From the IMG/VR virus record IMGVR_UViG_3300036985_002241, positions 1-35,841 of that record: a stretch of DNA of 35,841 nucleotides; one strand, given 5' to 3'. Position numbers and translations under genes: made by a program. This stretch comes from a virus. A model generated the notes under the pieces. That model was not told the origin of the DNA, ran no database searches, and saw nothing but the letters and a program-made list of their open reading frames with translations. How positions within the stretch are numbered: the stretch's first letter is position 1; every line of letters begins with the position of its first letter. Shown in pieces: positions 290-30,689 of this stretch.

Positions 290-297
290 CAAAACTA
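290..297 (-). promoter_or_regulatory. Possible -7 box for the repressor gene
   Basis: On the minus strand this reads TAGTTTTG, which fits the Bacteroidetes TAnnTTTG box and lies 11 bases before the repressor start codon. No TTTG is visible at the expected upstream distance, where operator 1 lies instead. The call is weak. Confidence 0.3.
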
Positions 298-357: not shown

Positions 358-388
358 TTTGGTGATTAAATAAATAACGCTATATTTG
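358..388 (+). promoter_or_regulatory. Early promoter, Bacteroidetes type
   Basis: TTTG (358-361), 19 bases, then TATATTTG (381-388) matches the known TTTG/TAnnTTTG promoter of Bacteroidetes. The expected start of transcription is near 394-396, giving a leader of under 20 bases before the ATG at 413. The -7 box overlaps operator 2, so a protein bound there should block transcription of the ten-gene early operon. Confidence 0.75.
370..387. promoter_or_regulatory. Operator 2: imperfect dyad over the early -7 box
   Basis: This site shares the 14-mer ATAACGCTATATTT with operator 1, 59 bases away. Its left arm matches the dyad at 5 of 7 bases, so it is probably a weaker site. It covers most of the TATATTTG promoter box. 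Confidence 0.55.
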
Positions 389-10097: not shown

Positions 10098-10626
10098 AAC
10101 TTGTAGGTTTAAAAGTTTTGCCTAAATAAATACCACAATCAAATGCTGACCTTTTAGGGTAAATAGTATCTACACCATCACCAGGATTATCATATAACGG
10201 GTAACTTGTTGAGTTTTCGCATAGGTAAGCTATTAAACGAGCCGAATGATACTGTGCTTTATCAACTACCATATTCATAAATTGATCTAACTCATTGTAA
10301 TCAATACCACTTGAGTTATCGCTGTTCTTTCTTACAATGTTTTTGTTAGTTACCTTGTATGTTAAGTAAGGTGCAGCCTCTACTAAAGTCCACCATTTTA
10401 GGGCAGGGATGATATAATTATCTAACAAAGTAGTATTTAAAGCTGTTACACTTGAAGTAGTTACTTGTGTTATTATCTCATCATACAAACCACTCCCAAT
10501 ATATTGGCGAATGTGTATTTTTTGTGCTTCTTCGATGCTAATACGGATATATTTCTCATCAACATTTTGGTCGATGAAAGTGTAATCCTTAACATAAGCA
10601 CTTGTTACTAATAATATTGTTGCCAT
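10063..10626 (-). CDS. Head-tail connector protein (DUF6712-like)
   Basis: The 187-residue protein has the look of adaptor proteins of Bacteroidetes phages: a strand followed by VDEKYIRISIEEAQKIHIRQYIGSGLYDEI (residues about 22-51), which resembles the start of DUF6712/gp6-type connectors, then long helices (PALKWWTLVEAAPYL; DYNELDQFMNMVVDKAQYH) and an extended tail. It overlaps the portal stop by one base (TAATG), and adaptor genes normally lie near the portal. It would form the ring below the portal. Confidence 0.65.
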   Translation of the reverse strand: MATILLVTSAYVKDYTFIDQNVDEKYIRISIEEAQKIHIRQYIGSGLYDEIITQVTTSSVTALNTTLLDNYIIPALKWWTLVEAAPYLTYKVTNKNIVRKNSDNSSGIDYNELDQFMNMVVDKAQYHSARLIAYLCENSTSYPLYDNPGDGVDTIYPKRSAFDCGIYLGKTFKPTSYEERFQNKHRH

Positions 10627-12551
10627 TATTTCTTAATTCTAACTACGTTTTGTACCCATACGTGTCTGCAATATGGAGTTGTTACATCTCCACCTTTACG
10701 TGTCCACCAACCGCCACGCTGCGCCCAAACATCATAACCAACTACTGAACTTATTTGTTCTATTTGTTGTCGGCTGTATATCTTACCTGCATTCATTAAC
10801 TTAACACAAAACTCACGAGAAGTAGGCAATAAAGCCTTTTGCCCTGGTCTTGGTTCGTATGTGTACATTATTCTTAAATTCTCAGTCTTTGCACCTTGCT
10901 CATCAATAACCTTAATAGCCTCTTTAGTTGGGACTCTGTTAGGTACATCTTCATTACCTAAATTAATAGCACCATCTTTAATTAACCTATCCACAGCTAC
11001 TCTAACTCTGTTTAAAGGAGTTTTTAAAGTATCTGCAATAGAATTGTTACTCATTAACGGGTCTTTGCTTAAAAGGTCTATAATGTTTCTATAAAGTAAC
11101 TTTACATCACCTTCTAAAATATCAAATCCATAAGTTTTAACTTCATTTTCAAATACATCATCAATAGAAAACTTAAATAAGTATTTCTTATCTATAAACT
11201 CAAATTTATCAATATCTTCGCCATATTGCCTAAACACTTCTATTGTACTTTCAATATCTTCTTGACTAAAAGAATGGCTACAACATTCATCTTCTTCAAA
11301 TCGGTGAACAGTTGTACTAATAACGGGTTTAATAGGTTCTACTTCTTCAATAGCTTCCAGGTTAAACATTTCTCTTATCTCATTCTTAGTCATTACTTTT
11401 ACCTTTTCTTCAATCGGTAAAACTTCTTGCATTGGTGTAACTTCTTTAAGATAAATTCTATTTGCAAAGCCTTTTAAAGCTAATAAATAGTTAAATTCTT
11501 TCTCAATCTCTTTTTGGTTTGGCTCTATGTAAGTACTACGATAAAGCAAAAAACTTTCAGATATTTGGTTTGTTCCTCCAAGTTCGCCTGGTGTTTTTAC
11601 ACCTACTAATAATGGATTAGATATTCTATGCCCTATAATTAACTCCTGAGTTACTTGCTCATTAAGTGAATCCAATTGAGTATCCACATTTTGAGGTGCT
11701 AACCTTGCAATAGTTGGCGCAGATTCTTTTGATGCACTAAAATTAATTAATAAGCTGTTTGCTTGGTCTGTTCCTACAAATTTCTCTTTTAGCTTATCTT
11801 CAATGTTTTCACGTTCCTCATCAGTTGGTCTGCCATTGTTAAAACTAATAATAGTACCTGCATTAAAACCACTCTTAATGGCATTTAATCGGTAATTGCT
11901 TAACTCAACATCAATCTCTGCATAAACACATGAAGCTAAGTAATCAGGTAAAGGATAGTAGTCTAAATCAGGTCTATATTCTTTTGCACAATAGATTTGT
12001 GATCCCGTTCCACCTTCTGGAGTGAAAGCATCAATATATTTTAAGCCCGTTGTTTCTTCGTCTTGTTTTTTATTACCCCAATCTTTTGAATACCAATAAC
12101 CATCATCATTCTTTGCCTTTCTCAAACTATTATAAGCCATGTGGTATATCTCGAATGATTTACCTGACTTATTCCAAACAATCTCTAAATAAAACCCTCC
12201 ATACAATTTCTTATCTAATACTGACTTTTGGATAACATCTTTTAGAGTATCGCCATTATCATTTTGCTTATTTAAGAAATCATTTACACTTGCTTTAGCC
12301 TCAATGTTTAATCCATGTGCATCAAAACCAACACCATTACCACAAATGTAATGCACCTTGCCATTGATAAAAGCATTTTGCTTAGATGAACGATTATACA
12401 AATAAGTAAGATAAGCAGGATAATTGTTATAATAATCACCTTTCTCAGCACCATAAATTATCCAGTCCTTTTGCTTTTCTTCTTTAAAAATCGGTGTTTT
12501 GTGAGCCGATAATTTAAGTGAAATAAAATTATATAAATTATCCTTCTCCAT
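10626..12551 (-). CDS. Portal protein with extra C-terminal domains
   Basis: The portal ring is the DNA entry and exit point of the head. Residues 1 to about 390 show portal character: QNAFINGKVHYICGNG, a helical stretch with YGGFYLEIVWNKSG, YRPDLDYYPLPDYLA, the SLLINFSASKE strand and the long C-terminal helix region with NPLLVGVKTPGELGG. Beyond the usual end, residues about 489-531 look like a winged helix (MSNNSIADTLKTPLNRVRVA). Residues about 565-641 carry LPTSREFCVKLMNAGKIYSR and GGWWTRKGGD...PYCRHVW, which resembles the C-terminal end of MuF/SPP1 gp7-type minor head proteins. No separate minor head gene is seen. Unusual length for a portal. Confidence 0.8.
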   Translation of the reverse strand: MEKDNLYNFISLKLSAHKTPIFKEEKQKDWIIYGAEKGDYYNNYPAYLTYLYNRSSKQNAFINGKVHYICGNGVGFDAHGLNIEAKASVNDFLNKQNDNGDTLKDVIQKSVLDKKLYGGFYLEIVWNKSGKSFEIYHMAYNSLRKAKNDDGYWYSKDWGNKKQDEETTGLKYIDAFTPEGGTGSQIYCAKEYRPDLDYYPLPDYLASCVYAEIDVELSNYRLNAIKSGFNAGTIISFNNGRPTDEERENIEDKLKEKFVGTDQANSLLINFSASKESAPTIARLAPQNVDTQLDSLNEQVTQELIIGHRISNPLLVGVKTPGELGGTNQISESFLLYRSTYIEPNQKEIEKEFNYLLALKGFANRIYLKEVTPMQEVLPIEEKVKVMTKNEIREMFNLEAIEEVEPIKPVISTTVHRFEEDECCSHSFSQEDIESTIEVFRQYGEDIDKFEFIDKKYLFKFSIDDVFENEVKTYGFDILEGDVKLLYRNIIDLLSKDPLMSNNSIADTLKTPLNRVRVAVDRLIKDGAINLGNEDVPNRVPTKEAIKVIDEQGAKTENLRIMYTYEPRPGQKALLPTSREFCVKLMNAGKIYSRQQIEQISSVVGYDVWAQRGGWWTRKGGDVTTPYCRHVWVQNVVRIKK

Positions 12552-12942
12552 ACGTTATGTAAGTTTTTGTTTGATTGTCGTACGCTTGTGTAATTACAGC
12601 ACTACCATTTACTTTTATCATTCCTATTTCTAATAAAGAAGTTGTATTTCTAATATCTAAATTAGTTGAACTTGTTTGTTCATAAATTGCATATTCATAA
12701 AAACCTGCATCGGATAAATTAACCACTCCGCTTGTTAGGTTTTCTGTTCCAGTTGTTTCAGTTAGTAAAAACTTATTGTATCTGTTAGGATAGATAGAAG
12801 TATCTGCAACTATAAAATTCTTTGGATTCATTTCTGTTTGCCCTTTCAAACTAAATAAGAAATAATAAGGTGCAGATAAAGTTACCTTTTCACTTAAAGT
12901 AAATACTAAAGTATTGTTTGATTGCTTTGTGATAACTTGCAT
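12538..12942 (-). CDS. Small virion-region protein upstream of portal
   Basis: The ATG at 12942 (MQVITKQSNNTLVFTL) is chosen over a TTG five codons upstream, because the TTG lies inside a repeated 33-base regulatory-looking element. The 134-residue protein is beta-rich, with PYYFLFSLKGQTE, YPNRYNKFLLTETTG and DAGFYEYAIYEQTSS. Such proteins occur beside capsid and portal genes in Bacteroidetes phages but have no assigned role that I can name. First gene of the block after a terminator. Overlaps the portal start by 14 bases. Confidence 0.6.
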   Translation of the reverse strand: MQVITKQSNNTLVFTLSEKVTLSAPYYFLFSLKGQTEMNPKNFIVADTSIYPNRYNKFLLTETTGTENLTSGVVNLSDAGFYEYAIYEQTSSTNLDIRNTTSLLEIGMIKVNGSAVITQAYDNQTKTYITYGEG

Positions 12943-12972
12943 AATAGTAAGTACCAAAAATTAACTAAGTTG
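12940..12972 (-). promoter_or_regulatory. Repeated 33-base element, copy A (late promoter candidate)
   Basis: On the minus strand it begins with CAACTT, contains TTTTGGTACTTA and ends in TATTATG, where ATG starts the next gene. Copy B at 23121-23153 matches at 28 of 33 bases. Copy A lies immediately after a terminator, where a new promoter would be needed to transcribe the portal, fibre and lysis genes. It does not contain TAnnTTTG, so a phage-specific factor may read it. Confidence 0.55.
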
Positions 12973-12973
12973 C

Positions 12974-13003
12974 AAAAAAAAAGGCAACCTTACAGGGCTG
13001 CCT
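12974..13003 (-). terminator. Rho-independent terminator after the tube-like gene
   Basis: On the minus strand AGGCAGCC, loop CTGTAA, GGTTGCCT form an 8-pair stem (one G-U pair) followed by nine U. It lies 24 bases after the stop of the gene at 13027-13539. Confidence 0.85.
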
Positions 13004-13026
13004 CTTAACTTATAAACATGAAAAAC

Positions 13027-13539
13027 TTAAACTAATAATGCTGCAATGATTCCAGATGCAACTGTGTTAGAAGGTAGAGGCTCTTTACCAGTTAAGGTAA
13101 TATTGTAACCATTCTTATCTCCTGATGCTTTACCAGTTGTAGATGCTGATGCGGTTAAGTGCATTGCTCTTGTTTCGCCTGCTAATCTGAAAACACCATC
13201 CATATCTTTAACAATAACAGCTAATCTGTTTTGAGTTAACAATCTAACAATATTCCTATTCTTAGCTGTCATTTTGTAAACAGAGAAAGTTAATGTTTGA
13301 GCGTAAAAAGTAGTTCCGTTTTCTACAGAAATAGTAGCATCTTCATTAAATAAAGCATCTTCCATTTCCAATTGAACTTCCCAAAACTTCTTACCGCTAT
13401 TCATTCCAATAGCTGAAATTGAACCCGATGCACTTGTAACAGATGCAACGTTAGCCCATTCGGTTAAGTAGATTTTATCTACTCCACCTGCCCCTTGTCG
13501 GCAATCGAGGGTTACCCCTTCAACAATTATACATGGCAT
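13027..13539 (-). CDS. Tail-tube-like virion protein (170 aa)
   Basis: Starts MPCIIVEGVTLDCRQGAGGVDKIYLTEW, then SGKKFWEVQLEMEDALFNEDATISVENGT, a long helix-strand segment (KNRNIVRLLTQNRLAVIVKDMDG), and ends with KNGYNITLTGKEPLPS. This layout is frequent in Bacteroidetes phages directly after the capsid gene and is compatible with a tail-tube or other highly expressed virion protein. It is bracketed by two terminators, so it is probably made in large amount, as expected for a major structural protein. Tube identity is inference. Confidence 0.55.
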   Translation of the reverse strand: MPCIIVEGVTLDCRQGAGGVDKIYLTEWANVASVTSASGSISAIGMNSGKKFWEVQLEMEDALFNEDATISVENGTTFYAQTLTFSVYKMTAKNRNIVRLLTQNRLAVIVKDMDGVFRLAGETRAMHLTASASTTGKASGDKNGYNITLTGKEPLPSNTVASGIIAALLV

Positions 13540-13554
13540 ATTTTAAATGTATTT

Positions 13555-13577
13555 AAAAAGGGGCTTTTTACACCCCT
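13555..13577 (-). terminator. Terminator after the major capsid gene
   Basis: On the minus strand AGGGGT, loop GTAAAAA, GCCCCT form a 6-pair stem with one T-G closing pair, followed by five U. It lies ten bases past the capsid stop and before the next start. It is shorter than the terminator at 12974, so it may be a partial terminator that lowers downstream expression. Confidence 0.7.
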
Positions 13578-13586
13578 AAGTTATTA

Positions 13587-14555
13587 TTAAGAATTTGTAT
13601 ATTGTACTACGTAGTCGATGTATTTAACTGCAACACCTGCTCTAAACTCACCATAGATTTTCATCTTACGTGTGTTTTGGTCATACCATGCTTCAAGGTT
13701 ACCTAAATCACTTTGTAAATCAGTACCAAACAATAAGTTCGATGCGTAAGTAGCAATAATACGATTTTTAACAGCAGTTGGTAAAACACCTGTATCAACA
13801 GCGTTATCGTTGTTTAAGCCTGGTACTGCGATTACTTTCATATTTGTACCTGGGTACATTAAAGTAAACTTAGCCCAAACACCATCAGTATTATAGTTAG
13901 AACCATAGATACCATAAGTAGAAGTAATCTTTGCTGCTAAAATACGGAAAGTATCCATACCACAGAAAGCTACAATCGGTTCGTTTGATAAAGCAGCAGC
14001 AGGAACTTTTGCATAAACATCATCAAAAATAGTTAATACGTTAGCAGCATTGATTGTTGAAGCAGTTGCAGCAACAGCAGTACCAGCAGTATCAATAGTT
14101 GATAACCAACCGTTGATTTGCTTTAATGTTGTGCTATTTGTGTAAGTTGTTTTACCCTGCCAAATCATACTCTCAACTTGTGAAGCAACACGTGCAGACA
14201 TTCTGTCCATAATTTGACCTTCAATAGAAGTTGATTGCTCATTTGCTCCAGCAGGTAAATACTTTTGTGTGTAGTACGCTTCTAAGTCTTTTAAACAAAA
14301 TTCCTGTGCAATTGCAATAGGCGAAGTTGCTAAAGAAATTTGGTTAATAGTAGTTGTTCCTGATGTGTTAAATGCACACGTACTACCTGATTGAAAAGGT
14401 ACACTTACATCTAAGTTAGGAATAGCCATAGTTGATTTGATACCTGTTCTGATATCTACACCTAAGCCTAATGTTACACCACCTAAGATGGCTTTTGTGA
14501 TAATGTCCGCTTTGTTTTCTTCAACGTATGCGGTTAATGATAATGAAAATCCCAT
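13587..14555 (-). CDS. Major capsid protein
   Basis: The 322-residue protein fits the short HK97-fold capsid type of Bacteroidetes phages. It has an N-terminal GFSLSLTAYVEENKADIITK, a DVSVPFQSGSTCAF strand, then LATSPIAIAQEFCLKDLEAYYTQKYLP, IMDRMSARVASQVESMIWQG, FDDVYAKVPAAALSNEPIVAFCG and MKVIAVPGLN, and ends with MKIYGEFRAGVAVKYIDYVVQY. These are in the usual order of capsid domains. It follows protease and scaffold genes and is followed by a terminator. No N-terminal delta domain is apparent, consistent with a separate scaffold gene. Confidence 0.85.
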   Translation of the reverse strand: MGFSLSLTAYVEENKADIITKAILGGVTLGLGVDIRTGIKSTMAIPNLDVSVPFQSGSTCAFNTSGTTTINQISLATSPIAIAQEFCLKDLEAYYTQKYLPAGANEQSTSIEGQIMDRMSARVASQVESMIWQGKTTYTNSTTLKQINGWLSTIDTAGTAVAATASTINAANVLTIFDDVYAKVPAAALSNEPIVAFCGMDTFRILAAKITSTYGIYGSNYNTDGVWAKFTLMYPGTNMKVIAVPGLNNDNAVDTGVLPTAVKNRIIATYASNLLFGTDLQSDLGNLEAWYDQNTRKMKIYGEFRAGVAVKYIDYVVQYTNS

Positions 14556-14574
14556 TTTGTTTTTTTGTTTTTAA

Positions 14575-15210
14575 TTAATATTTAAAGTTATTTTTTCTAA
14601 ATTCATCCAATACAGATAGTGTTGGAGTAGGTTTGCTAAATTTCTCTTTAGATGTTGAAGTAGGCTTTACACTTGGTGCATCTGCTAACTTTTCAATTAA
14701 AGAAAATAGTTTAGTGTTTAAATCATTTTGTTGAGCAATCTTTGAAGCTGCCTCTGCAATTGTTACATTAGCTTTTTGTACTTCTTGACTTGACAATTGA
14801 TTTGCTGCTTCAAGTGCTGCAATTCTTTCTTCTAAAGATGCAATCTTTGCGCTAAAATCTTCTGATTGCATTTCTTCCATAACTGGCATACCTTCTGCAA
14901 CTGGAGCTTCTTCCATTTCTTTAGGTTCTAATCCCATTACTACACCATTTTCTAAGTAAACTTTTGTAGGTACATCGTTAACCATAACTACCATTTCAGT
15001 TACATCAGCAGGTATATCCATAACACCTTCGGGAGTAATAACTTGAAGTTTAACACCTATTGCTATTTCAGGTGCATCTGTTCTAATTATTGAGCCATCT
15101 TCGGCTTTGTAGTCAATAAAAGATTGCTCTTTTACTTCTGATGCGAAAAACTCTTTACCAATGGCAGCAAGTTCGCTCATTATTTCTTTGAAAGATTGTT
15201 TATTGTCCAT
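14575..15210 (-). CDS. Head scaffolding protein
   Basis: The ATG at 15210 (MDNKQSFKEIMSELAAIG) is chosen over a TTG at 15243 that would overlap the protease. The protein has 211 residues. A beta-rich middle (EIAIGVKLQVITPEGVMDI, EMVVMVNDVPTKVYL) is followed by a Met/Glu/Pro-rich linker and a coiled coil (residues about 117-175, SAKIASLEERIAALEAANQL). The basic C-terminal tail (PTLSVLDEFRKNNFKY) is typical for scaffolds, where it touches the capsid protein. It lies between protease and capsid genes. Confidence 0.75.
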   Translation of the reverse strand: MDNKQSFKEIMSELAAIGKEFFASEVKEQSFIDYKAEDGSIIRTDAPEIAIGVKLQVITPEGVMDIPADVTEMVVMVNDVPTKVYLENGVVMGLEPKEMEEAPVAEGMPVMEEMQSEDFSAKIASLEERIAALEAANQLSSQEVQKANVTIAEAASKIAQQNDLNTKLFSLIEKLADAPSVKPTSTSKEKFSKPTPTLSVLDEFRKNNFKY

Positions 15211-15226
15211 ACTATTAAGTATTAAT

Positions 15227-15838
15227 TTATTTAGTTGTTGCAAACTTTTTTAGTTTTTCTTTTAAAGATTGGATTCTTTGTACCACCCCTTCGATTTGTT
15301 CTTGTGGCATATCTGTTAACTTTCTGTGAGCAAAAGCACCCTCAACACTAAATCCTTTAAAAACTCCAGTCTTTATAAAGTCATTCCAAACTTCATCGTT
15401 ATCAACTTTAAAAGTTCCAAACCAACTGCCCTCTGTTAGTGTTGGATAACCTTCGGGAGTTCTTATTCCTCTCGTTTTATCTATGATCATAGATTCAACC
15501 ATGTAAACACCCGTTACTTTACGCTCGGCATCGTGCATCATGTTTACGTTATGAATAAATCCACTCTTGAAATAACGTTGTGCTATCTTTTCAATTTGCT
15601 CTTTGTCAAATATTACATAGTACTCACCGCTTTCATCTCTACGATAAATTGGTAAATCGGCTGCCATTAAAGCACCGCTAATTAACCTTCTGTCTTTGTC
15701 TGCAATAAAGTTGTATTGTTTAGCCTCATTAAAAGCCATCCAATTCTTTTCAATTGCAGGTTTATCTACTAAAGCAACGAAGTCTACTCCCAACTCATCG
15801 CTATCATCTATTACTAATTTGTAAATCGGTAAATTCAT
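15227..15838 (-). CDS. XkdF-like prohead protease
   Basis: The 203-residue protein matches the XkdF-type putative serine protease pattern. It has IYRRDESGEYYVIFDKEQIEKIAQRYF, then GFIHNVNMMHDAE with a conserved His, GVYMVESMIIDKTRG, SWFGTFKVDNDEVWNDF and finally GVFKGFSVEGAFAHRKL with the likely catalytic Ser in GFS-V-EG. The C-terminus is a Lys-rich helix. It directly precedes scaffold and capsid genes, the normal place for the enzyme that processes the prohead. The opening LVIDDSDELGVDFVALVDKPAIEKNW is also typical for this group. Confidence 0.85.
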   Translation of the reverse strand: MNLPIYKLVIDDSDELGVDFVALVDKPAIEKNWMAFNEAKQYNFIADKDRRLISGALMAADLPIYRRDESGEYYVIFDKEQIEKIAQRYFKSGFIHNVNMMHDAERKVTGVYMVESMIIDKTRGIRTPEGYPTLTEGSWFGTFKVDNDEVWNDFIKTGVFKGFSVEGAFAHRKLTDMPQEQIEGVVQRIQSLKEKLKKFATTK

Positions 15839-15843
15839 AATTT

Positions 15844-17754
15844 TTATATTTTAGATTGTTCACTTAATTTATTAACTCGTTTTGATACTTCTGCGCTTTC
15901 ACTTTCTACAACGTATGCCTTAATTACTGATGGTTGCCCTTGTTTGTTTACACTACCATCTGCATTTAAAACTGTTTGGTTATTACCACCGCCACCACCA
16001 ACATTAGGGGCTTGTGTGAATGTGCCAGGTGTAGAAACGTTAACACTACCTGAATTTGATGCGCTACCACCTTCAAACGTACTAGCTAATATCTTTGCTA
16101 CGTTTGCTGCTGCTATTACTCCATTAACTGCTGCTAAAGCTATTGCACCTGGACCAAGTGTTCCTGTATTAGCTAAAGCACCCGATACTGAAAGTATCCC
16201 ATCTTGAATTGCTCGTGCAACACTAAATGCTTTATTTACTTCAAATGCTTTCTTTTGTATCTTTAGAGTTTCTGCTTCATTACCTTTTGCTGATTTTAAT
16301 TTATGTGCAAAAAAAGCATCAGATATACCTTGTAAAGCCTCAACACTTTTTTCTGCGGCTTGATTTAATTTTTCATCATCAGCTGCTTTAGCATCAGCTG
16401 CTTTTTTATCATCATCAGCTCCTTTTTGGTCAGCTTCTGCACTTAATTTATTTGCCGTTTCACGTGCATCAGCCCAATCTTTATCATCTTGTTCTTTTTC
16501 TTTTTGTTTTCTTTCTCTTAATAATTTATTATAAGCATCTATTTCTTCGGGAGCTGCAATACCTAAAGCTATCTTTGTTGATATTTGTTGTTCAGCAATT
16601 ATTTGTTCTTGCTCATCAATCTTACCTTGTAACGCATCTATTTCATAAGCTATAAATGCGGCTTGTTCTTTCCTGTAATGCTCTGCATTAGCTAAATCAT
16701 CTTGCTTTTTTTTCTCCGCTGCTGCGTTTGCCTTATCTGCATTAGCTTTATCATTATCAATCTTTTTTTGCGCTTGTTCGTTATCGAATGCTTGTAACTC
16801 TGCTGTTGAACTTTTAAATAAGTCTACTTTTTCTTTTACTAGTTTATTAGATGCTTCTGCATTTTTTTGCTCCATTAAAAGTCTGGTATCAGTCCCCGTT
16901 TGAAGTTTTAATACAGCAGCACCAATCTTTTGATACCAATCTAACTCCTTATCCTTAATTCCTTGTGCTTGTGCATTTAAAGCATCTAATTGAGCCTGTT
17001 TCTGTGTTTCAACTATTCTTTGTCTTTTTAATGCAATTATCTCTTTCTCATTTGCTGCAAGTCCACTTAAAGCTAATATCTCGTTATCAATACTCTTAAC
17101 AGTTTCCTTACTTTGCTCTATTGCTCTATTGTTAGCCTCTATGTATTCTTCTGTGGCACTCTTACTATCATCAAAAGCGTTAGCTAATAACACAGCAGCA
17201 CCAACTAAAGCAGTAATAGCTACTACCATTAACATAATTGGATTAGCAGCCATTACAGCATTCCAAACACGTTGTGCAACTGCTGCTATTTTTGTAACAG
17301 TTTCAACTCCTAATATCTGAGTTATTAATTGTTTAGCTACATTCCCTGCTACCTTTAAGCTATCACCCATTGCAGTAATACCTTTGATACCATCAGCTAA
17401 AGCACTTGCAGCTTGTACTTTTAATAAAGCCTTTTGTACTTCTTCTGATTCAGCACCAAGCAAAGCAGCAGCACCTTGTGCAGCTTGGAATCCCGATGCA
17501 ACACCACCAATAACATTACCAAATGCAGCTACCTTAGCATCTGTTCCTGCAAAGGCTTGTATCTCTGCTTTTAAATCCCCTATCTCATCTTTAACCGATC
17601 CTAACCTTTGTAAGGTTTCAATATATTTTTGAGTGCCAGGTACTAATCCATCTAATTCGGTTTGCATTTCTGCAAATTCCTTTTTTAACGTTTTCATGGA
17701 TTTTACTCCTTCGCCTACGTTAACATCTATTTCTATTGTATCTTTTGTTGCCAT
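15844..17754 (-). CDS. Tape measure protein
   Basis: The 636-residue protein starts with DTIEIDVNVGEGVKSMKTLK and the coiled coil KKEFAEMQTELDGLVPGTQK, typical of Bacteroidetes phage tape measures. An Ala/Gly-rich region follows, then a hydrophobic part (residues about 165-195, NPIMLMVVAITALVGAAVLL) and long Lys/Ala/Gln coiled coils (about 200-470). A second hydrophobic Gly/Ala segment (about 530-570) and a flexible Gly/Asn end complete it. It is short, so the tail should be short for a siphovirus, provided the whole length is used. It lies downstream of the tail chaperone pair and tail-tip genes. Confidence 0.85.
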   Translation of the reverse strand: MATKDTIEIDVNVGEGVKSMKTLKKEFAEMQTELDGLVPGTQKYIETLQRLGSVKDEIGDLKAEIQAFAGTDAKVAAFGNVIGGVASGFQAAQGAAALLGAESEEVQKALLKVQAASALADGIKGITAMGDSLKVAGNVAKQLITQILGVETVTKIAAVAQRVWNAVMAANPIMLMVVAITALVGAAVLLANAFDDSKSATEEYIEANNRAIEQSKETVKSIDNEILALSGLAANEKEIIALKRQRIVETQKQAQLDALNAQAQGIKDKELDWYQKIGAAVLKLQTGTDTRLLMEQKNAEASNKLVKEKVDLFKSSTAELQAFDNEQAQKKIDNDKANADKANAAAEKKKQDDLANAEHYRKEQAAFIAYEIDALQGKIDEQEQIIAEQQISTKIALGIAAPEEIDAYNKLLRERKQKEKEQDDKDWADARETANKLSAEADQKGADDDKKAADAKAADDEKLNQAAEKSVEALQGISDAFFAHKLKSAKGNEAETLKIQKKAFEVNKAFSVARAIQDGILSVSGALANTGTLGPGAIALAAVNGVIAAANVAKILASTFEGGSASNSGSVNVSTPGTFTQAPNVGGGGGNNQTVLNADGSVNKQGQPSVIKAYVVESESAEVSKRVNKLSEQSKI

Positions 17755-17766
17755 TTAATATTATTA

Positions 17767-20649
17767 TTATGGGTAAACTTTAATTAATATAACAGATTGT
17801 GTTAATATATCATCAGTTAAAGTACCAGCTAAATTTCTTGTTTTAATTACTATTGTATTATCGTTTTGCCTCTGAATACTCGCTAAATTATCACCACCCG
17901 TTTTGCCTAAACAAATTATAGCAGAAACTTTATCCTCAATAAACTCACCCGTTAAAGTTATACTATATTCGCCTGTTGCTGTTGCTGTTACTGATGGTGT
18001 ACCACTTAAAGTATTTTGTAAAGTAATAACCGATGGAGTGCCTCCCCCTGTTTGTGTTGCTAATATTTCATATACCTTAGCCACACTTGTACTAACCGCC
18101 ACCCCGTTAACATAGCTTGTATTACTTTCAGTTACCTCAACATCATTACTATTGATTAACGTTACATTGCTTAAACCTCCTAAAATTGTTACACCGCTAC
18201 TACCTAAGATAGTTACATTACTTGCACCCTCACCAACACTATTATAATTACCTGTTACAAGTATCCCATCGCCAATACTTGGTAAATTATTATACTGACC
18301 AAAAGACTTTATGCCATAACTATTGTTTGATAAAGTTCTATTTGTCGCTGCCGGTGCTGTGTCGTTATTGTTTAATGGAGTTACACCACCTTTTATTGGT
18401 ACACCCGTATCTTCTGCAAATGGTATAGAAGTCTTTAACTTTACAAACTCACACTTAGTAGGCTCACCACTTGAAGGGTTATAATCATAAATCTTATTTA
18501 ACCGCCAATACTCATTTTCGAAATAAAAGCTACATTGAAAGTTTAACTCATTAATATCTATTTCATCTAACTTAAAGTAACCGATAAATATTTTACTATT
18601 TTTATCTATTAACTCATTAAAGTAATCAGCCCAATAAACGTTGTATAAGTTATTTGCTGTGTAACTTTCAGTTAAGTACATAACTTCTTTAGGAACTCCA
18701 AAAGATAAATCAATAACTGGCGATGTTGGATTATCAACATGACCTGCATAACCATACGTTGATAAAACAGTTGTACCCGAAGTAGCAATGTGGTTGTAAG
18801 GATTATTAGTTGTCTTAACACCTCCATAATAAAGTAATCTTATGTTACTTGCCTTTGGCTTTATCGTGCCTTGCTCATCAACATCGTATATCTTTGGTAT
18901 TATTCTATCTATGCCAATAGTATCAACTAATGGAGTAGGACTAAATATAACCTCGTTTTTTATTTCACCTTTTAAGAAATCATTTTCAACATCTAATATC
19001 TTTTCTCCATAAATTTCTTGGTACTCATTAAAATATTGCTTATTGTAGTAATCCTCATCTTTTTTATAGGTAAAAATAAAACGCTTTGTGTTAAGTTCAC
19101 CCATTGGAACTATTTTTATTTGCCTACTATTATCAAGCTTATCAGTCCAATCTCTGACATAATCAGCTGTGTTAGGGTAAAAGTTTTTTCGAGGCTCAAT
19201 TAATAACTTGTTAGGTATTAACTTATCTTGATGAATAAATAAGTTGAAGCACTTAATAATAGATTTTAAGAACTCTGACTGCTTAAACTTTGCAGGTAAT
19301 ACGTTATTGAGTTCAACACTATCACCCTCTTGTATGTTTACATCTGATAGTTGAACAGCGTACAAAGTACCAATATTAACGTTAATTCTTTGGTAGTTAC
19401 TTACTGAGTTTGCTCCTGATAAATAAACACCTCCAACATTACCCTGGGAAATATATTCGCAATAAATAACATCTCCTGCACTTACTGCTGCTGTTACTGA
19501 TAGTTCTCCTGTTGCTTCTAATGTAGTTGTACCACTTGTTACTGTGCTACCACCATTAAGTATTGAGAAATTATTAGATAATGGAAAATTATCACATAAT
19601 CTTACAGAAGTTGACATTAGTATATTTACTCCTCCTGATTGAATTCTTATTCTAAAATTACCCAATACTGGGAACTGACCATTTAATGTTGTGTTAGCAC
19701 TTGGAAAATGTGTAACACTTACCTTTGGTTTAAATCTAAATACATAAGTACCAGACTTAGATACTGTAAACTTACTTGTAGTATTGTTGTAAACATTACC
19801 TGTATCAAAGTTTGGAGTTGTACTATCATCTTGTATATCTATTACTGATGATGCATTTCCATAGTTATTTATATAAGTTACTCCGCTACTTGTTGCTCTA
19901 AATGTTCTATTCTCTATTTGTGTATCTGTTAGCTTTAAAGCACTACCACCGCTAAATGGTATAACCAATCTTTTAAATAAATCAGTATTAAAGAAATTAC
20001 TTTCATATTGGAAACCTGCATCCCCTATTATTTTATCTATAATTGTTTTTACATAAACAGCAGGAAACAAGTGCTTAACATTCCAATCAACTCCATTGTT
20101 ATAACCATAATCAATTAAAGGGTAAACATAACCCTCACCCAAAGTAAATGGATAAGATGCACCATTCTTAGTGATGGCATAATCCCAACTATTCTTTTGT
20201 ACTTGTGCTGTGTATAAATGGTTATATGCTGAAAGGTCAACTTGAGCTAAAGTCTTATTCTCTATTGCTTGAAATATATTACCCAACTCCCCTAAGAAAG
20301 CAACCTCATAATTAATCTCGTATTCATCTAACAAGTTAACGTTAAGCAGTTGAACTATGCCTGTAAATTGTACCACATCTTTGTAGGTAATAATTGCAGA
20401 TGCTTTTAAGTTAGGGTTAAACATTGGATTGAAGTTTGTAGTACCACTTGAATTAACACTACTATTTACATTCCATATTTGACCAAACAACTTATTGTTT
20501 AATTGACTGCCAGGTATTACAACTGTCTTACTAAACGTTGTATTCCTTTTTTCAGGCTCTCTAACATCAGCAATTGCATAAGTTAATGGAATACTAACAT
20601 CATCAGTAATATCAATTAACTCGCTATTAATATAGATTTTAGTATTCAT
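17767..20649 (-). CDS. Large tail-tip/baseplate protein with beta-solenoid end
   Basis: The 960-residue protein opens with KIYINSELIDITDDVSIPLTYAIADVREPEKRNTTFSKTVVIPGS, the start of a widespread Bacteroidetes phage tail protein that is thought to form the tail tip or hub. The middle has mixed beta domains. Residues about 776-844 hold a Gly/Asn/Val repeat (ASNVTILGSSGVTILGGLSN, then VTLINSNDVEV) that looks like a beta-solenoid needle. A final approximately 110-residue beta domain may be distal. Its start overlaps the previous stop by one base (TAATG). By place and size it is the main host-contacting hub. Confidence 0.65.
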   Translation of the reverse strand: MNTKIYINSELIDITDDVSIPLTYAIADVREPEKRNTTFSKTVVIPGSQLNNKLFGQIWNVNSSVNSSGTTNFNPMFNPNLKASAIITYKDVVQFTGIVQLLNVNLLDEYEINYEVAFLGELGNIFQAIENKTLAQVDLSAYNHLYTAQVQKNSWDYAITKNGASYPFTLGEGYVYPLIDYGYNNGVDWNVKHLFPAVYVKTIIDKIIGDAGFQYESNFFNTDLFKRLVIPFSGGSALKLTDTQIENRTFRATSSGVTYINNYGNASSVIDIQDDSTTPNFDTGNVYNNTTSKFTVSKSGTYVFRFKPKVSVTHFPSANTTLNGQFPVLGNFRIRIQSGGVNILMSTSVRLCDNFPLSNNFSILNGGSTVTSGTTTLEATGELSVTAAVSAGDVIYCEYISQGNVGGVYLSGANSVSNYQRINVNIGTLYAVQLSDVNIQEGDSVELNNVLPAKFKQSEFLKSIIKCFNLFIHQDKLIPNKLLIEPRKNFYPNTADYVRDWTDKLDNSRQIKIVPMGELNTKRFIFTYKKDEDYYNKQYFNEYQEIYGEKILDVENDFLKGEIKNEVIFSPTPLVDTIGIDRIIPKIYDVDEQGTIKPKASNIRLLYYGGVKTTNNPYNHIATSGTTVLSTYGYAGHVDNPTSPVIDLSFGVPKEVMYLTESYTANNLYNVYWADYFNELIDKNSKIFIGYFKLDEIDINELNFQCSFYFENEYWRLNKIYDYNPSSGEPTKCEFVKLKTSIPFAEDTGVPIKGGVTPLNNNDTAPAATNRTLSNNSYGIKSFGQYNNLPSIGDGILVTGNYNSVGEGASNVTILGSSGVTILGGLSNVTLINSNDVEVTESNTSYVNGVAVSTSVAKVYEILATQTGGGTPSVITLQNTLSGTPSVTATATGEYSITLTGEFIEDKVSAIICLGKTGGDNLASIQRQNDNTIVIKTRNLAGTLTDDILTQSVILIKVYP

Positions 20650-21866
20650 TATCTTCTTTGTCTTACTCTGTTATAATTATATCTAAAACTTAATGAGAGG
20701 TTAAATAGTTGGTCATTTGATACATACTTAGTTTGATAGTTTGTATCAACAATATTAACAGCAACTAAGTTGCTACCCTCGTAAACATAAACATCAGGCG
20801 AACTAACTAACTGCTCTAACCATACACTTTGAGCCTCTGTTATCCAATCTGACTGAACATTGATAGTATCATTTAATACTGTTTCAAATTGTGTAGTACC
20901 TCTGTTTCTTGCATTACCTAAATAACCTGATGTACTCCACTTGTTATTATCACTCTTATATAAATTTTTCTTTATGTCTGTATTCTTTTTTGTAGCACCT
21001 AAGAAAGTAAAGTAATCATACTTGCCATAGTTATTCATAAACTTAAAACGTACTGGAGTTCCTTTTGTGCATTGGTCAACTAAGTAAATAGTTAACGTTT
21101 CAGAAGATGCTACACTTGTACTATCTAACATACAAATAGTATAAGAGCCAGGATTAAGTAAAAAAGGCGCAGTTCCAGTTACAAAGTCTGCAGTTACTAA
21201 ACTATTTAACCATGCAAAGCCTACGTTTAAATCAATTGACCTATCTGTATTTGCGCTAATTGTGTTATAAGGATTTAGAATAGTAACAGTATCGGCAAAG
21301 CTACCATCAGGCTCATAACTCGAAATTTCTAAAAACTTACCCTCATCTGTTGTATTGTTTAAAAATCCTATGTTTAACTTATCTGTTGCTGTTACTTCTA
21401 TTCTTGGATTATCGGTTAAGAAGTTACTTGAAGTATCGCCTAACTTGTATAGGTTTTGATTATAGCTTAAATAGTCAATAGGATTAAACACCCCGTTATA
21501 AGCGTATGCTGTTTTACTTGTTATGTTTGGATAAGTTGTTACACCGCTACTTGCTCCATACTGCTCACCAAATTGCACCACATAGCTACAAATATGGTTA
21601 CCACATTGCTTAAAGGTAGTTGTGTTATCTTCGGCATTACTTGTTAAATAGCTTTGTACTATTCCACTAATATCTACTACACCACTTGAATAGGTAGGAT
21701 GCGCAACCACTTCAATACGATTGTAAGTAGATGCACCATTAATGTAGATATCTGCAATGTATCTAAAGTTAGCTTGTGCTGTATTAGTAGATGACAATGT
21801 ATAAAACATATCATTGTTTGCAGGGTAAAATCCACTATCCGCTAATCCTGTTATTGTTAGTGCCAT
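20649..21866 (-). CDS. Tail structural protein (405 aa)
   Basis: A beta-rich protein that opens MALTITGLADSGFYPANNDMFYTLSSTNT and ends with WITEAQSVWLEQLVSSPDVYVYE, then VNIVDTNYQTK and FNLSLSFRYNYNRVRQRR. The C-terminal pattern is shared with baseplate-type proteins located directly before the large tail-tip protein in related phages. The start overlaps the previous stop by one base, and its own stop overlaps the next start, so the three tail genes are translationally linked. Likely a distal tail or baseplate component. Confidence 0.6.
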   Translation of the reverse strand: MALTITGLADSGFYPANNDMFYTLSSTNTAQANFRYIADIYINGASTYNRIEVVAHPTYSSGVVDISGIVQSYLTSNAEDNTTTFKQCGNHICSYVVQFGEQYGASSGVTTYPNITSKTAYAYNGVFNPIDYLSYNQNLYKLGDTSSNFLTDNPRIEVTATDKLNIGFLNNTTDEGKFLEISSYEPDGSFADTVTILNPYNTISANTDRSIDLNVGFAWLNSLVTADFVTGTAPFLLNPGSYTICMLDSTSVASSETLTIYLVDQCTKGTPVRFKFMNNYGKYDYFTFLGATKKNTDIKKNLYKSDNNKWSTSGYLGNARNRGTTQFETVLNDTINVQSDWITEAQSVWLEQLVSSPDVYVYEGSNLVAVNIVDTNYQTKYVSNDQLFNLSLSFRYNYNRVRQRR

Positions 21867-22378
21867 TATTTAACTAATTGTTGTTCTAATACTTTTAATA
21901 TGTTTTCTTTGAATCCTGGTAACTCAGAAGATAAAAACTTACTCCCTTTGTAACCGAATTTCTTTATCGTTCCTTTTTTCAATATAGCTTTTGTTATTAA
22001 ATAGGCTAATGTTTCTCGTTTCTTTACTTTGCTTAATTGTTGTACGCTTGGTTTGTTAGCTATCCACTTCATTATCTGTGGCAGCATTTTAGCTATATTA
22101 TCTTTAGTTGCTCCTTTTGGTTTAGTGCCTTCGTCTATATCCTTCCAGTAATCATTTAACTCTATTCTTATTTTAACCACTCCTGCGCTCGTTATTGTTG
22201 GCAATGGTACAATAGATGCACTTAACTGCCCCGATGCGTTTAAATCGTTTGTTTCTAAGTTCTGCTTAACATCGCCAATGAACTGCTGAATAACCACATC
22301 AATCTCATTATAGGTCAAATGCTCAAAGTCATTAATCCTTTTGTCAAATGAATTTAATAAGTTATCTAACTGTCCCAT
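21866..22378 (-). CDS. HK97 gp10-like tail completion protein
   Basis: The 170-residue protein is helical at the N-terminus, has ASGQLSASIVPLPTITSAGVVKIRIELNDYWKDIDEGTKPKG (residues about 48-89), and ends with a helical Lys-rich part. The short strands followed by YWKDIDEGTKP resemble the Y-x-x-(Y/I)-x-E-x-G-T motif of gp10-type tail or head-tail joining proteins. It overlaps the frameshift ORF by 13 bases. Such a protein near the tail chaperone is common. Confidence 0.6.
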   Translation of the reverse strand: MGQLDNLLNSFDKRINDFEHLTYNEIDVVIQQFIGDVKQNLETNDLNASGQLSASIVPLPTITSAGVVKIRIELNDYWKDIDEGTKPKGATKDNIAKMLPQIMKWIANKPSVQQLSKVKKRETLAYLITKAILKKGTIKKFGYKGSKFLSSELPGFKENILKVLEQQLVK

Positions 22379-22641
22379 TTATTCCTATCCTTTACAAAAC
22401 TTAAATAATTAAGAAATGCTACTATATTCATGTTTAAAAAGTAATCCCATTTCTCCCTATCTTTATTTGCTAACTTATCTAAGGTTACATACCACCCCCA
22501 ATGTTGGAAATGCTTATCCTGTTCTGTTAACTCAACTCTATCTCTTTCGCTATCTTCTGTAATATCTTTTCCTTTTCCTTTTCCAAATAACCCTTTATAA
22601 CGGGTAATAAATTGGTTAAGACCTTGCAAAAAAAAACACAT
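22366..22641 (-). CDS. Tail chaperone extension (GpT-like) in the -1 frame
   Basis: This frame overlaps the chaperone gene by 115 bases and is in the -1 frame relative to it. It could be read alone from the ATG at 22641 (91 aa), but I think it is the C-terminal part of a fusion made by a -1 slip on nine U at 22628-22636. That would join chaperone residues 1-165 to 87 residues starting LQGLNQFITRYKG, giving 252 aa. The C-terminal HFQHWGWYVTLDKLANKD and FLNMNIVAFLNYLSFVKDRN recall small proteins found after tail chaperones in Bacteroidetes phages. Lambda makes GpGT the same way. Confidence 0.65.
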   Translation of the reverse strand: MCFFLQGLNQFITRYKGLFGKGKGKDITEDSERDRVELTEQDKHFQHWGWYVTLDKLANKDREKWDYFLNMNIVAFLNYLSFVKDRNKWDS

Positions 22642-23123
22642 ACAGGGTAAATAACACCTACATTAATTGTCTTAATTAGTTCTAACCTTTCTTTGTAATC
22701 CATTTCAACAGGCACATATCTAAACCATTTACGCTTGTAAGGTTTAACAAAGATTGAAGTTATCTCTGCCATGTTCATAATTACATCATCTTCGGTTGTG
22801 CTTAATTTAGTTAAACTTATGAAGTCAGCAGAAGATATCTTACTAATATCGTATTTTACATGCCATTTATACCCTGCATGATTAAACCACTCAACTGGTT
22901 GTGGAAACTCTAACTTAAAAATAAATCTTACCTTTTTGATTAGATCTCTTAGCTGACCAAGTTCAATAGCCTCAATTTCTGCAACTGATAAGCCTGTTAA
23001 AATAGATATTAATCGAACCTCTTTATCAATAGGCTCAATATCTTTATCATTTATAATATCGTAAATAAGTGGGAATTGTTCTATTGTGATAGATGCCCAG
23101 CTTTTTGGAATTGATACCTTCAT
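22527..23123 (-). CDS. Tail assembly chaperone (GpG-like)
   Basis: The ATG at 23123 (MKVSIPKSWASITIEQF) is chosen over an upstream TTG. The 198-residue protein has PLIYDIINDKDIEPIDKEVRLISILTGLSVAEIEAI near the N-terminus, which fits phage tail chaperones, and a predominantly helical body. It follows the terminase and precedes tail genes. A U9 run near codons 163-166 lets ribosomes enter the -1 frame that ends at 22366. Unshifted ribosomes finish the Lys/Glu-rich C-terminus (KGYLEKEKEKILQKIAKE). Confidence 0.65.
   Translation of the reverse strand: MKVSIPKSWASITIEQFPLIYDIINDKDIEPIDKEVRLISILTGLSVAEIEAIELGQLRDLIKKVRFIFKLEFPQPVEWFNHAGYKWHVKYDISKISSADFISLTKLSTTEDDVIMNMAEITSIFVKPYKRKWFRYVPVEMDYKERLELIKTINVGVIYPVCVFFCKVLTNLLPVIKGYLEKEKEKILQKIAKEIELS
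22628..22636 (-). other. Candidate -1 frameshift (slippery) site, U9
   Basis: On the minus strand, nine consecutive U follow GUG. In the chaperone frame they read GUU UUU UUU UGC, so the heptamer U UUU UUU is available for simultaneous slippage of both tRNAs. After a -1 shift the ribosome reads UUG CAA GGU and stays open to 22366. A run of this length could also cause transcriptional slippage. No strong downstream stem was evident by eye. Confidence 0.65.
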
Positions 23124-23153
23124 AATAATAAGTACCAAAATTTAGTGAAGTTG
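23121..23153 (-). promoter_or_regulatory. Repeated 33-base element, copy B (late promoter candidate)
   Basis: This is the second copy of the element at 12940-12972: CAACTT at the upstream end, TTTTGGTACTTA, and TATTATG ending at the chaperone start codon. Five of 33 bases differ. It fills nearly the whole gap between the terminase stop (23156) and the chaperone start. A weaker relative, with TACTTA and TATG at matching distances, precedes the scaffold gene at 15208-15225. Confidence 0.55.
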
Positions 23154-23155
23154 TA

Positions 23156-24361
23156 CTAAGAAACCATGTAACGACCGCCTTTATTTTTAACATAGCACTC
23201 ATAAGCAATGCAAGTACTCATTACACCATCATCGTGAAAACCACTTGGAGCTGAGTATCTTATATGCCTTGTTTTGGGATTGTATTCATAGCTAAACATC
23301 TCTAACTCTTTATCTAACCATTCAGCATTACAGAAAGTAACCTCTGCATTTTGATTAGCCACAATTAACTGCTCAACTACTTCCTTTTTACTTTGTGCGG
23401 TTGTGGTAAATGGTTCTACTCTGCAATAACTTCTTAATTCCTTTTCAAGTAGTTCAAAGATAACATCGCCTATACTATTGACCTCAACTAATACAGACCT
23501 AACATTGTTTTGTCTTATACCTTCTGCTATGTTTTTAACTATTGCACTCCAATCGGTATGCCTCCAACGTTCAATGTATATCTGTTCGCCCCTTTCATTA
23601 AAGATAGATAGTACTGAGTAATCATCTGCCCTACCTAAGTCAATCCCTGCATAAGCATTACCATAAGGCTGTGAATCTTTTAACACTCGGTTGTTAAATA
23701 ACAATGCACTACCATCAACGAACTCTGCCAGGTATTCTTGCTTAAAAATCATTTCTGGCAATGTATAACGGGCATCGTCAATCTCTTTGGGGTTAATCAT
23801 TGGATTGTCGTATGAAGTCATTGTAAAAGACTTATACTGCTCGTTGTTCCCATCTAATTGATGTAACCTATAAAAATGATTTTTACCCTTTGGAGTTGAG
23901 ATAAGTAGTACTTTCTTACCTTTAACTAATACAGTTGCTCTAAGTACTTCTGTCCATGCTTTCTCATCCATAAAAGCAAACTCATCACAAACAAGGTAAT
24001 CGAATGTAAAGCCTCGAATGTTATCGTATCTTTCAGCTGAAAAGAATTGAAGTGTTGAGCCATTGCAGAAACCTATCTTTAACTTTTGGCTATCCTTTTT
24101 AACTATAATACCCTCACTATGTGCAAAGGCTCTTACTACTTGCTCATATACTTTGTTAGCTTGATTGTAAACGGGTGATACCCATGCACACTCACACTTA
24201 CCTTTAAGTAACCAAAAAAGTATTTGATTTGTAGCTAATAAAGATTTACCAAACTGCCTACCAATGTTTATAACATAGTATTTGTATGGTTCTTTATTAA
24301 TTGAATCATGTATCTTGGCTTGGTTCGGATGGGGGTTGTATAGTGTTACCGAAGTCGACAT
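23156..24361 (-). CDS. terL: Terminase large subunit
   Basis: The ATPase-nuclease that packages DNA into the prohead. Walker A is GRQFGKS (residues 34-40), Walker B is YLVCDEFAF with Asp126-Glu127, and the coupling motif is LLISTPKG (152-159). The RNase H-like nuclease shows GIDLGRADDYS with Asp241, VLVEVNS with Glu293 and GFHDDGV with Asp377/Asp378. At 401 residues it is a compact member of the family. It overlaps the small subunit by 56 bases, typical of a paired operon. The stop lies just before a repeated 33-base element. Confidence 0.95.
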   Translation of the reverse strand: MSTSVTLYNPHPNQAKIHDSINKEPYKYYVINIGRQFGKSLLATNQILFWLLKGKCECAWVSPVYNQANKVYEQVVRAFAHSEGIIVKKDSQKLKIGFCNGSTLQFFSAERYDNIRGFTFDYLVCDEFAFMDEKAWTEVLRATVLVKGKKVLLISTPKGKNHFYRLHQLDGNNEQYKSFTMTSYDNPMINPKEIDDARYTLPEMIFKQEYLAEFVDGSALLFNNRVLKDSQPYGNAYAGIDLGRADDYSVLSIFNERGEQIYIERWRHTDWSAIVKNIAEGIRQNNVRSVLVEVNSIGDVIFELLEKELRSYCRVEPFTTTAQSKKEVVEQLIVANQNAEVTFCNAEWLDKELEMFSYEYNPKTRHIRYSAPSGFHDDGVMSTCIAYECYVKNKGGRYMVS

Positions 24362-29203: not shown

Positions 29204-30192
29204 TTGTTTATATCGTAGTTAGTTCGTGTGTAATATTCTAAAGCATCTGCCTTATCCTGTCTGTAATCAGGTTCGTTAATCATTTTCTTGATAGCCTTGT
29301 ACCAATCACTTTCATCGTTTATCCAATGTCCTACATTTTTAGGTAAAGTGTTATAAGGTAAAGCATTTTGTACTATTACAGCGTTTCTGTGCGCTCCTGC
29401 CTCCAACATCTTTATCTCACTTTTAAACGGAGTGAATACACTTGAAGCTAATGGTATCAAACTAACATCAATATAATTGTAAGCCTTACCATATTCTGTT
29501 ACTGGCATAGCATCAATACGCTTGTAATGTTGTTTGCCTATTCCGTTGCAGCTTAGTACATTTTCATAATAGTTATAGTGTGGATTGTTATTGTAACCGC
29601 CTAAAACAAATTGACAATCTAATTTAAACATTGATTTCTTTATTCCTGCTGCCATTAGCCTAACATCTTCAATATGGTGAACTCCTGCCACATAACCAAA
29701 CCTTAACTTATAACCTTGTACTTTGTTTTGTTTCCATTGTTCTTCGTTAGTATCTAAGCAGTTAGGTAATACATAAACATTTTTATTATACTTTCTTACT
29801 TCTTTTGCCAGGTGTTCAGTAGTACAAGTTACTAAGTCAACTAACTTTAATATCTCAATTGTTTGCGCACTTATTTTGTGTTCTTTGTAGGCTTTATGTA
29901 GCCAATGTGTAGCAGGTAGAATCCAATAGTCATCAATATCAAAAATTACTTTAAGCCCTAAAGATTGGTAACGTTTGATTAATTCGGCACTTCTGCCTTG
30001 TATATCAATCTCTCTTTGGTAAACAATAGCATCGAAATTTTGTAACTGCTCATCAGTCATGTTATGAGGCTCGTTATAAACATCACATTTGAACTCTACT
30101 AAATCACTTACCTTTGTGTAAGGTACAAGTAGCCTATGATAGTTAAGTCCTGATAACTCTTGTATGTTTGTTTTAATCAGTATTTTCTTCAT
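29158..30192 (-). CDS. GT-B (family 4-like) glycosyltransferase
   Basis: The 344-residue protein has two Rossmann-like halves. The N-terminal half has KILIKTNIQELSGLNYHRLL, VIFDIDDYWILP and LVDLVTCTTEHLAKEVRKY. The C-terminal half has LRFGYVAGVHHIEDVRLM and the donor-binding segment FTPFKSEIKMLEAGAHRNAV, corresponding to the E-x7-E region of GT4 enzymes. It is the first glycan gene after the sigma-like gene, overlapping it by 20 bases. It is the largest transferase in the set. Confidence 0.85.
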   Translation of the reverse strand: MKKILIKTNIQELSGLNYHRLLVPYTKVSDLVEFKCDVYNEPHNMTDEQLQNFDAIVYQREIDIQGRSAELIKRYQSLGLKVIFDIDDYWILPATHWLHKAYKEHKISAQTIEILKLVDLVTCTTEHLAKEVRKYNKNVYVLPNCLDTNEEQWKQNKVQGYKLRFGYVAGVHHIEDVRLMAAGIKKSMFKLDCQFVLGGYNNNPHYNYYENVLSCNGIGKQHYKRIDAMPVTEYGKAYNYIDVSLIPLASSVFTPFKSEIKMLEAGAHRNAVIVQNALPYNTLPKNVGHWINDESDWYKAIKKMINEPDYRQDKADALEYYTRTNYDINKWTETRKQILRSVLV

Positions 30193-30655
30193 TGTGGGCT
30201 TTCTTTAAATTGTCTTTAATTGTCTTAATATCATTTGCAACTGTTCTGTAAGGAATGTTAGTTTTTCGGCTTACTGCTCTGCAATCTCCTAACTTAACGT
30301 ACATTTTAAGTAGGTTCTTTTCGTAGTAGTCAAAGTCATCGGAGTATTTATCGTTAAGCATATTTACTATTTCGTTATAAATAACCTCTTTTTGTTCTTG
30401 TTCTTCAACATCCTGGTTCTCCTGCAATGGCTGAAATGGTGTGATGTACTTTTGTCTAAACTTATTAGAGTGCCATGTTAACCAAACCACTTTAGCAAAA
30501 AAAAAGGATAAGTTTCTAATTTCGGTAAACTCATATTTCTTTTCGTGAATAAATAGTATAGCTTCGGAGTGTAGATCATCTACTAATTCATTATTCTTAC
30601 ATACGTTTTCTGTAATTATTCTATATTTTTTATTTAATAATTCAGCAAAACTCAT
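30173..30655 (-). CDS. Sigma-factor-like late transcription regulator
   Basis: The 160-residue protein resembles a small sigma-70 family factor. Residues about 24-70 (LVDDLHSEAILFIHEKK, then IRNLSFFFAKVVWLTWHSNKF) fit region 2, with aromatic residues for core binding and promoter melting. Residues about 118-150 (KMYVKLGDCRAVSRKTNIPY, then RTVANDIKTIKDNL) form an HTH like region 4. A Glu/Gln-rich linker separates them. It is the first gene of the run leading into glycan, terminase and virion genes and has its own Bacteroidetes-type promoter. It probably directs host RNA polymerase to late promoters. Poor similarity to named sigma groups is expected for phages. Confidence 0.7.
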   Translation of the reverse strand: MSFAELLNKKYRIITENVCKNNELVDDLHSEAILFIHEKKYEFTEIRNLSFFFAKVVWLTWHSNKFRQKYITPFQPLQENQDVEEQEQKEVIYNEIVNMLNDKYSDDFDYYEKNLLKMYVKLGDCRAVSRKTNIPYRTVANDIKTIKDNLKKAHNEENTD

Positions 30656-30659
30656 TATG

Positions 30660-30689
30660 CAAATGTAATTAAAATTTTATAGTTGCAAA
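30660..30689 (-). promoter_or_regulatory. Promoter of the sigma-like gene
   Basis: On the minus strand TTTG (30689-30686), 18 bases, TACATTTG (30667-30660) fits the host promoter consensus. The box ends only four bases before the ATG at 30655, so the mRNA should be leaderless or nearly so. The promoter lies wholly in the 45-base gap after the nuclease gene. Confidence 0.7.

Follow-up and report, generated by a model that had tools for sequence, protein, structure and literature searches.

The genome of an uncultivated phage carries, in front of several virion genes, a two-part element that is probably a phage-specific late promoter, read by host RNA polymerase carrying an ECF-type sigma factor encoded by the phage itself (Table 1). 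The window, that is, the whole stretch of DNA analyzed here, corresponds to the IMG/VR virus record IMGVR_UViG_3300036985_002241 (35,841 bases), and the phage probably infects Bacteroidota. Because the window encodes a primase with a BT4734-like domain, contains host-type TAnnTTTG boxes upstream of early genes, and has a portal protein whose best match is that of Nonlabens phage P12024S (28%), the host is likely to be a member of Bacteroidota, probably a flavobacterium. A search with the major capsid protein (MCP) across GTDB genomes found neither a prophage nor a host, and among named phages there was no match to the window MCP or to the sigma-like protein.

Table 1. Features of the window relevant to the candidate late promoters and their proposed recognizer.
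Feature	Coordinates	Strand	Remarks
Candidate late promoter, copy E, before the gene heading the portal operon	12940..12975	-	Core conserved in relatives after sequence-diverged terminators
Candidate late promoter, copy C, in the gap between terL and the next gene	23121..23156	-	
Third, weaker candidate site G, before the scaffold gene	15208..15243	-	GGTACTT or TGTACTT in relatives
Intrinsic terminator-like hairpin (11 pairs and a T run), directly 5' of copy E	12979..13006	-	
ECF-type sigma-like protein, 160 aa, two predicted domains (sigma2 and sigma4); proposed recognizer	30173..30655	-	NCBIfam family match and predicted fold
Candidate host-type promoter of the sigma gene, TTTG-N18-TACATTTG, ending 4 nt before the ATG	30660..30689	-	Single match, 0.48 expected by chance
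Portal protein	10626..12551	-	PHROG portal families
134-aa gene heading the portal operon, 3' of copy E	12538..12942	-	
Likely scaffold gene, downstream of site G	14575..15210	-	Between protease and major capsid genes
198-aa gene, 3' of terL and copy C	22527..23123	-	
Terminase large subunit (terL), 5' of copy C	23156..24361	-	

The initial annotation drew attention to two 33-base stretches, at 12940-12972 and 23121-23153, that match at 28 of 33 bases. Both are real, lie on the minus strand, differ at five positions and end on the ATG of the following gene, and comparison of the two downstream proteins confirms that they are unrelated. Copy E follows the terminator-like hairpin, as had been described, and consists of TTGCAAC (12975-12969), a 13-nt spacer, GGTACTT (12955-12949), ACTATT and the ATG (12942-12940). 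Copy C, with GTACAAC (23156-23150), again 13 nt, GGTACTT (23136-23130), ATTATT and the ATG (23123-23121), fills the gap after terL, its -35-like part extending to the last base of the terL stop codon. The weaker version reported before the scaffold gene proved stronger than claimed, as it also has the upstream part: TTGCAAC (15243-15237), 13 nt, AATACTT (15223-15217), AATAGT and the ATG (15210-15208), and in relatives the scaffold-gene site has GCAAC at the same spacing from its core. The role of this gene is a likely one, deduced from its position beside the genes for an XkdF-type protease and the MCP.

When up to three mismatches were allowed, the joint pattern had exactly two matches in the window and none in 100 dinucleotide shuffles. 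The relaxed pattern RCAAC-N13-RRTACTT, with a genome-wide expectation of 0.1 in Markov simulations, has four matches in the window, all on the minus strand; three are found at late-gene starts (12975-12949, 23156-23130 and the weaker 15243-15217), and the fourth, at 186 inside a gene, is probably due to chance. No exact TAnnTTTG, the -7 box of Bacteroidota sigmaA promoters, occurs in copies C and E, in agreement with the initial annotation. Each copy has TA-N3-TTTG, but a host reading of this word was rejected because relatives do not conserve it; a sigma-70 consensus reading was also rejected, with scan matches at or below chance.

The 33-mer was rejected as the conserved unit, its flanks being variable among relatives; this unit is the two-part RCAAC-N13-GGTACTT (RCAAC-N13-RRTACTT at the window sites). 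Close relatives keep both copies, with variable bases between CAACTT and TTTTGGTACTT, and in relatives with terL proteins 73-81% identical to that of the window, the gap between terL and the next gene retains GGTACTT and the A/T stretch before the ATG but not the longer flank. In a motif search of relatives, GGTACTT was the top upstream heptamer, preceding 40 of 443 called gene starts in an unbiased count (0.44 expected), and in A/T context it occurred 39 times in the clade-1 set, a median of 1 being obtained with its 420 letter permutations. Of 46 copies in this context from 12 relatives, 44 pointed in one direction per record, the reversed control giving no match, and the heptamer is found almost only on the coding strand, the sense of short contigs being set by gene direction. 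RCAA lies exactly 18 nt upstream of the core in 8 of 31 site clusters, other offsets being represented at most twice, and none of 5000 shuffles reached this peak. In the same clusters, the five bases 3' of the core are nearly all A or T, which matches the expectation for a melting region. In some cases GCAAC overlaps coding sequence or a terminator, and intragenic GGTACTT often encodes Gly-Thr. A copy (site A) that coincides with the last codons, RYL/RYL-stop, of the gene preceding g24934 was left uncounted, as it may reflect coding conservation.

When the core was mapped relative to orthologous genes, relatives had it before the tape-measure gene (D), the scaffold gene (G) and a tail-region gene of 93 aa (F), and also before the genes that follow terL (C) and head the portal operon (E); phages whose small terminase is of another type have it before that terminase gene as well (B). 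The window holds C, E and the weaker G. A comparison aimed at relatives that keep the protein starts and lose the element showed that the core is retained at both sites of the initial annotation, as it is at orthologous virion-gene starts with diverged flanks, but also that neither the window nor its closest relatives have the tape-measure site. At site E, a terminator hairpin stands just upstream in both clade 1 and clade 2, although the hairpin sequences differ, and a promoter would be needed at this site because of the terminator directly upstream. The terS type of many relatives (L086-L099) differs from that of the window, and these have their own GGTACTT copy upstream. A second hairpin with a short T run (13559-13577, minus strand), between the MCP gene and g13027, recurs in both clades, where the stem sequences differ, and is not followed by a promoter; it may serve in attenuation or protect an mRNA end.

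Outside clade 1, the whole set of sites has changed. In clade 2 (ten contigs, MCP 60-66% identical), GGTACTT was not found before genes; instead, the orthologous portal and scaffold sites have GTnACA-N14-NNCACTT, and one contig has this signal at C too. In the cultured Nonlabens phage P12024S (JQ823122), all six plus-strand copies of CGTTAMTA lie exactly 12 nt before annotated starts and a seventh (CGTTAATT) 11 nt before another start, the genes with copies including the first gene of the portal operon; no fixed -35 was found with CGTTAMTA. Each of the three groups has a gene for a small sigma-like protein. Such a set-wide promoter change is what a trans-acting recognizer predicts (compare phages phiEco32 and 7-11; PMC8948821). 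Tentatively, and with slightly less than even confidence, it can be proposed that several flavobacterial phage lineages share a late switch, made up of a fast-evolving ECF sigma and co-evolving, near-leaderless promoters at fixed genome positions, whose specificity would have been rewritten genome-wide at least twice (GGTACTT, NNCACTT, CGTTAMTA) with the promoters unmoved.

The initial annotation proposed the sigma-like protein as a natural candidate recognizer of the element. The sigma likeness is backed by an NCBIfam family, the predicted fold and homologs; the pairing with the sites is circumstantial. The NCBIfam family sigma70-ECF matches 15 of the 26 family members over their full length (best E-value 7e-6), and the window member alone has a remote match to it (TIGR02937; 0.0016), whose 18.1 bits fall short of the curated cut-off of 42.9; a search of the window genome with TIGR02937 found nothing. 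There was no clear match in Pfam (where no sigma family was hit), PHROG or PDB sequences, apart from a weak match of only 8 of the 26 members to PHROG 1740. A first AF2 model, built from 7 sequences, was discarded as too weak (pLDDT 60), and the model from 26 sequences has a pLDDT of 76, with the linker (residues 74-91) below 50. In a Foldseek search with the latter model, the top ranks were nearly all sigma factors (best E-value 0.011), and in fold comparison residues 1-78 match sigma2 and residues 87-159 match sigma4, including region 4 of sigmaE bound to -35 DNA. The predicted fold thus shows the ECF layout of sigma2 and sigma4 joined by a short linker, with neither sigma1.1 nor sigma3. Because VIA Z values are below 8 (rmsd being large for the two-domain matches), this support for the sigma identity is good but not conclusive.

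Homologs are present in the clade-1 genomes that include this region and in the one clade-2 record that is long enough; the clade-2 protein has 177 aa. In P12024S, the sigma gene, which encodes gp33, directly follows a VRR-NUC gene, the same order as in the window, and the VRR-NUC proteins of the two phages are homologous (39%, E-value 7e-23). The P12024S sigma itself has a weak hhalign match to the window family and was not found in the profile search A4. The interval from the sigma-like gene to terS (25379-30192) holds a row of glycosyltransferase- and methyltransferase-like genes, and in the clade-2 phage L222 a glycosyltransferase likewise lies downstream of the sigma gene. Contigs with the sigma4 helix RTVANDIK often keep RCAA at -18, whereas those with QTVFYDLK (L085, L157, L158) have it in none of 14 sites and keep GGTACTT; this covariation amounts to about one lineage contrast and is no more than suggestive. 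Like the letter permutations, it was evaluated on named contigs; grouping by shared words had merged unrelated contigs.

In the close relative L106, the candidate host-type promoter of the sigma gene persists in the form TTTG-N18-TATATTTG; this promoter would fit production of the sigma before the late genes. It contains TTTGCAAC, the -35-like word of the late promoters, at nearly the same spacing, for which dual recognition or autoregulation is possible. A divergent early region at 278-413 combines TAGTTTTG (290-297, minus strand) and TATATTTG (381-388, plus strand) with a repeated TAACGCTATATTT-like stretch of operator-like appearance, beside a small putative DNA-binding gene (96-278).

Under the proposed mechanism, host RNA polymerase would first transcribe phage genes, the sigma gene included, from host-type TAnnTTTG promoters. 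The phage sigma would then bind core polymerase and direct it to the late sites, RCAAC serving as the -35-like part and GGTACTT with the A/T-only stretch as the -10-like part, 13 nt apart, and late transcription of the virion-gene blocks would begin at C, E and G. With the flavobacterial box spacing (TAnnTTTG at -12 to -5; PMC9723704), starts are predicted at or within a few bases of the ATG, and the late mRNAs would therefore be leaderless or have very short leaders. Leaderless mRNAs are rare in Flavobacterium (5.5%; PMC9723704), which counts against a start at the ATG. Recognition of the sites by this protein, the lateness of the genes and the transcript starts are all three what we infer.

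The sites could also be late promoters with another recognizer, either a phage activator acting with a host sigma or an alternative sigma of the host. In its favor, the sigma-like protein is remote and its link to the sites is indirect, and among the several ECF sigma factors of P. gingivalis and F. psychrophilum hosts there is one that uses a -10 box with CGT (PMC9723704), comparable to CGTTAMTA in P12024S. This reading is nevertheless rather unlikely, for the sites are devoid of a conserved host TAnnTTTG, the change between phage clades extends to the whole set, and all near-complete related genomes that were checked have a homolog or syntenic counterpart of the sigma-like gene. A role of the core in the mRNA, as a signal for translation initiation, is very improbable. 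The core always lies 5' of ATGs, and the window copies have A at -3 and -6, as favored in F. johnsoniae (PMC6847099), but they have GG at -13/-12, where that species favors A; moreover, the distance from core to ATG varies between about 10 and 30 nt, the core is limited to a few genes per genome, and it comes after a terminator and is accompanied upstream by a partner at fixed spacing. Least probable is a recent duplication, a mobile fragment or a site bound by a repressor or another DNA-binding protein, for although the two copies are 28/33 identical and any protein could bind the core, the element is non-palindromic and directional, and the core stayed while its flanks diverged over many orthologous sites in relatives.

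The phage late promoter reading is thus favored by several lines of sequence evidence, namely the conserved core, the -35-like part at a fixed distance, the coding-strand bias, the terminator upstream of the portal site and the set-wide change in a distant clade. With respect to the functional kind "phage late sigma and cognate late promoters," a shared motif precedes several operons considered late from their virion functions, and a sigma-family protein is encoded, with a remote match below the curated cut-off. Phage 7-11 already exemplifies the combination of an ECF-type phage sigma and late promoters in two parts, which is therefore a known kind. New with respect to the literature searched are the host phylum, the promoter sequences and the sigma group; no account of late promoters or phage sigma factors from Bacteroidota phages was found there. 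For work on the late-gene switch, the finding supplies concrete promoters, a sigma candidate and a phage with its host in culture (P12024S on a Nonlabens/Persicivirga host); it also supplies a natural series in which a sigma and its whole promoter set appear to change specificity together.

Salmonella phage 7-11 encodes the ECF-type sigma SaPh711_gp47, with region 4, and has several bipartite late promoters, GTAAtg-16-aCTA; it shares promoter locations, but not sequences, with the related phiEco32 (PMC8948821). The window phage resembles it in having a predicted ECF-type sigma and bipartite candidate late promoters, and the 7-11 sequence is close to the clade-2 GTnACA-N16-CACTT, although the sigma proteins are not detectably related: between the window sigma and gp47 there is no BLASTP alignment and the hhalign probability is 4%, so that homology to the gp47 family (PHROG 1740) is not indicated. 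The two phages differ in host phylum and genome, and the 7-11 starts have been mapped and transcribed in vitro, whereas those of the window are predicted. The gp36 protein of phiEco32, likewise a phage sigma for late promoters, reads middle and late promoters with a single element, tAATGTAtA, and lacks region 4 (PMC8948821). T4 gp55 is another small, diverged late sigma, sigma2-like without sigma4, that requires gp33 and the sliding clamp (PMC2988020); the window protein is not of this sigma2-only type, as both domains, including a C-terminal sigma4-like one, are predicted, and its sites have a -35-like part. Among host systems, the Flavobacterium sigmaA promoters (TTTG/TAnnTTTG; PMC9723704) resemble the likely promoters of the early genes and the sigma gene, and the CGT -10 box of the ECF motif SM6 (PMC9723704) resembles CGTTAMTA of P12024S; the late cores GGTACTT and NNCACTT are unlike both. 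P12024S differs from the window phage in the sequence and exact 12-nt placement of its core and in a sigma only weakly similar to the window family, but it is likewise a flavobacterial phage, its sigma gene also follows VRR-NUC, and an element recurs before several of its genes, the head of the portal operon among them.
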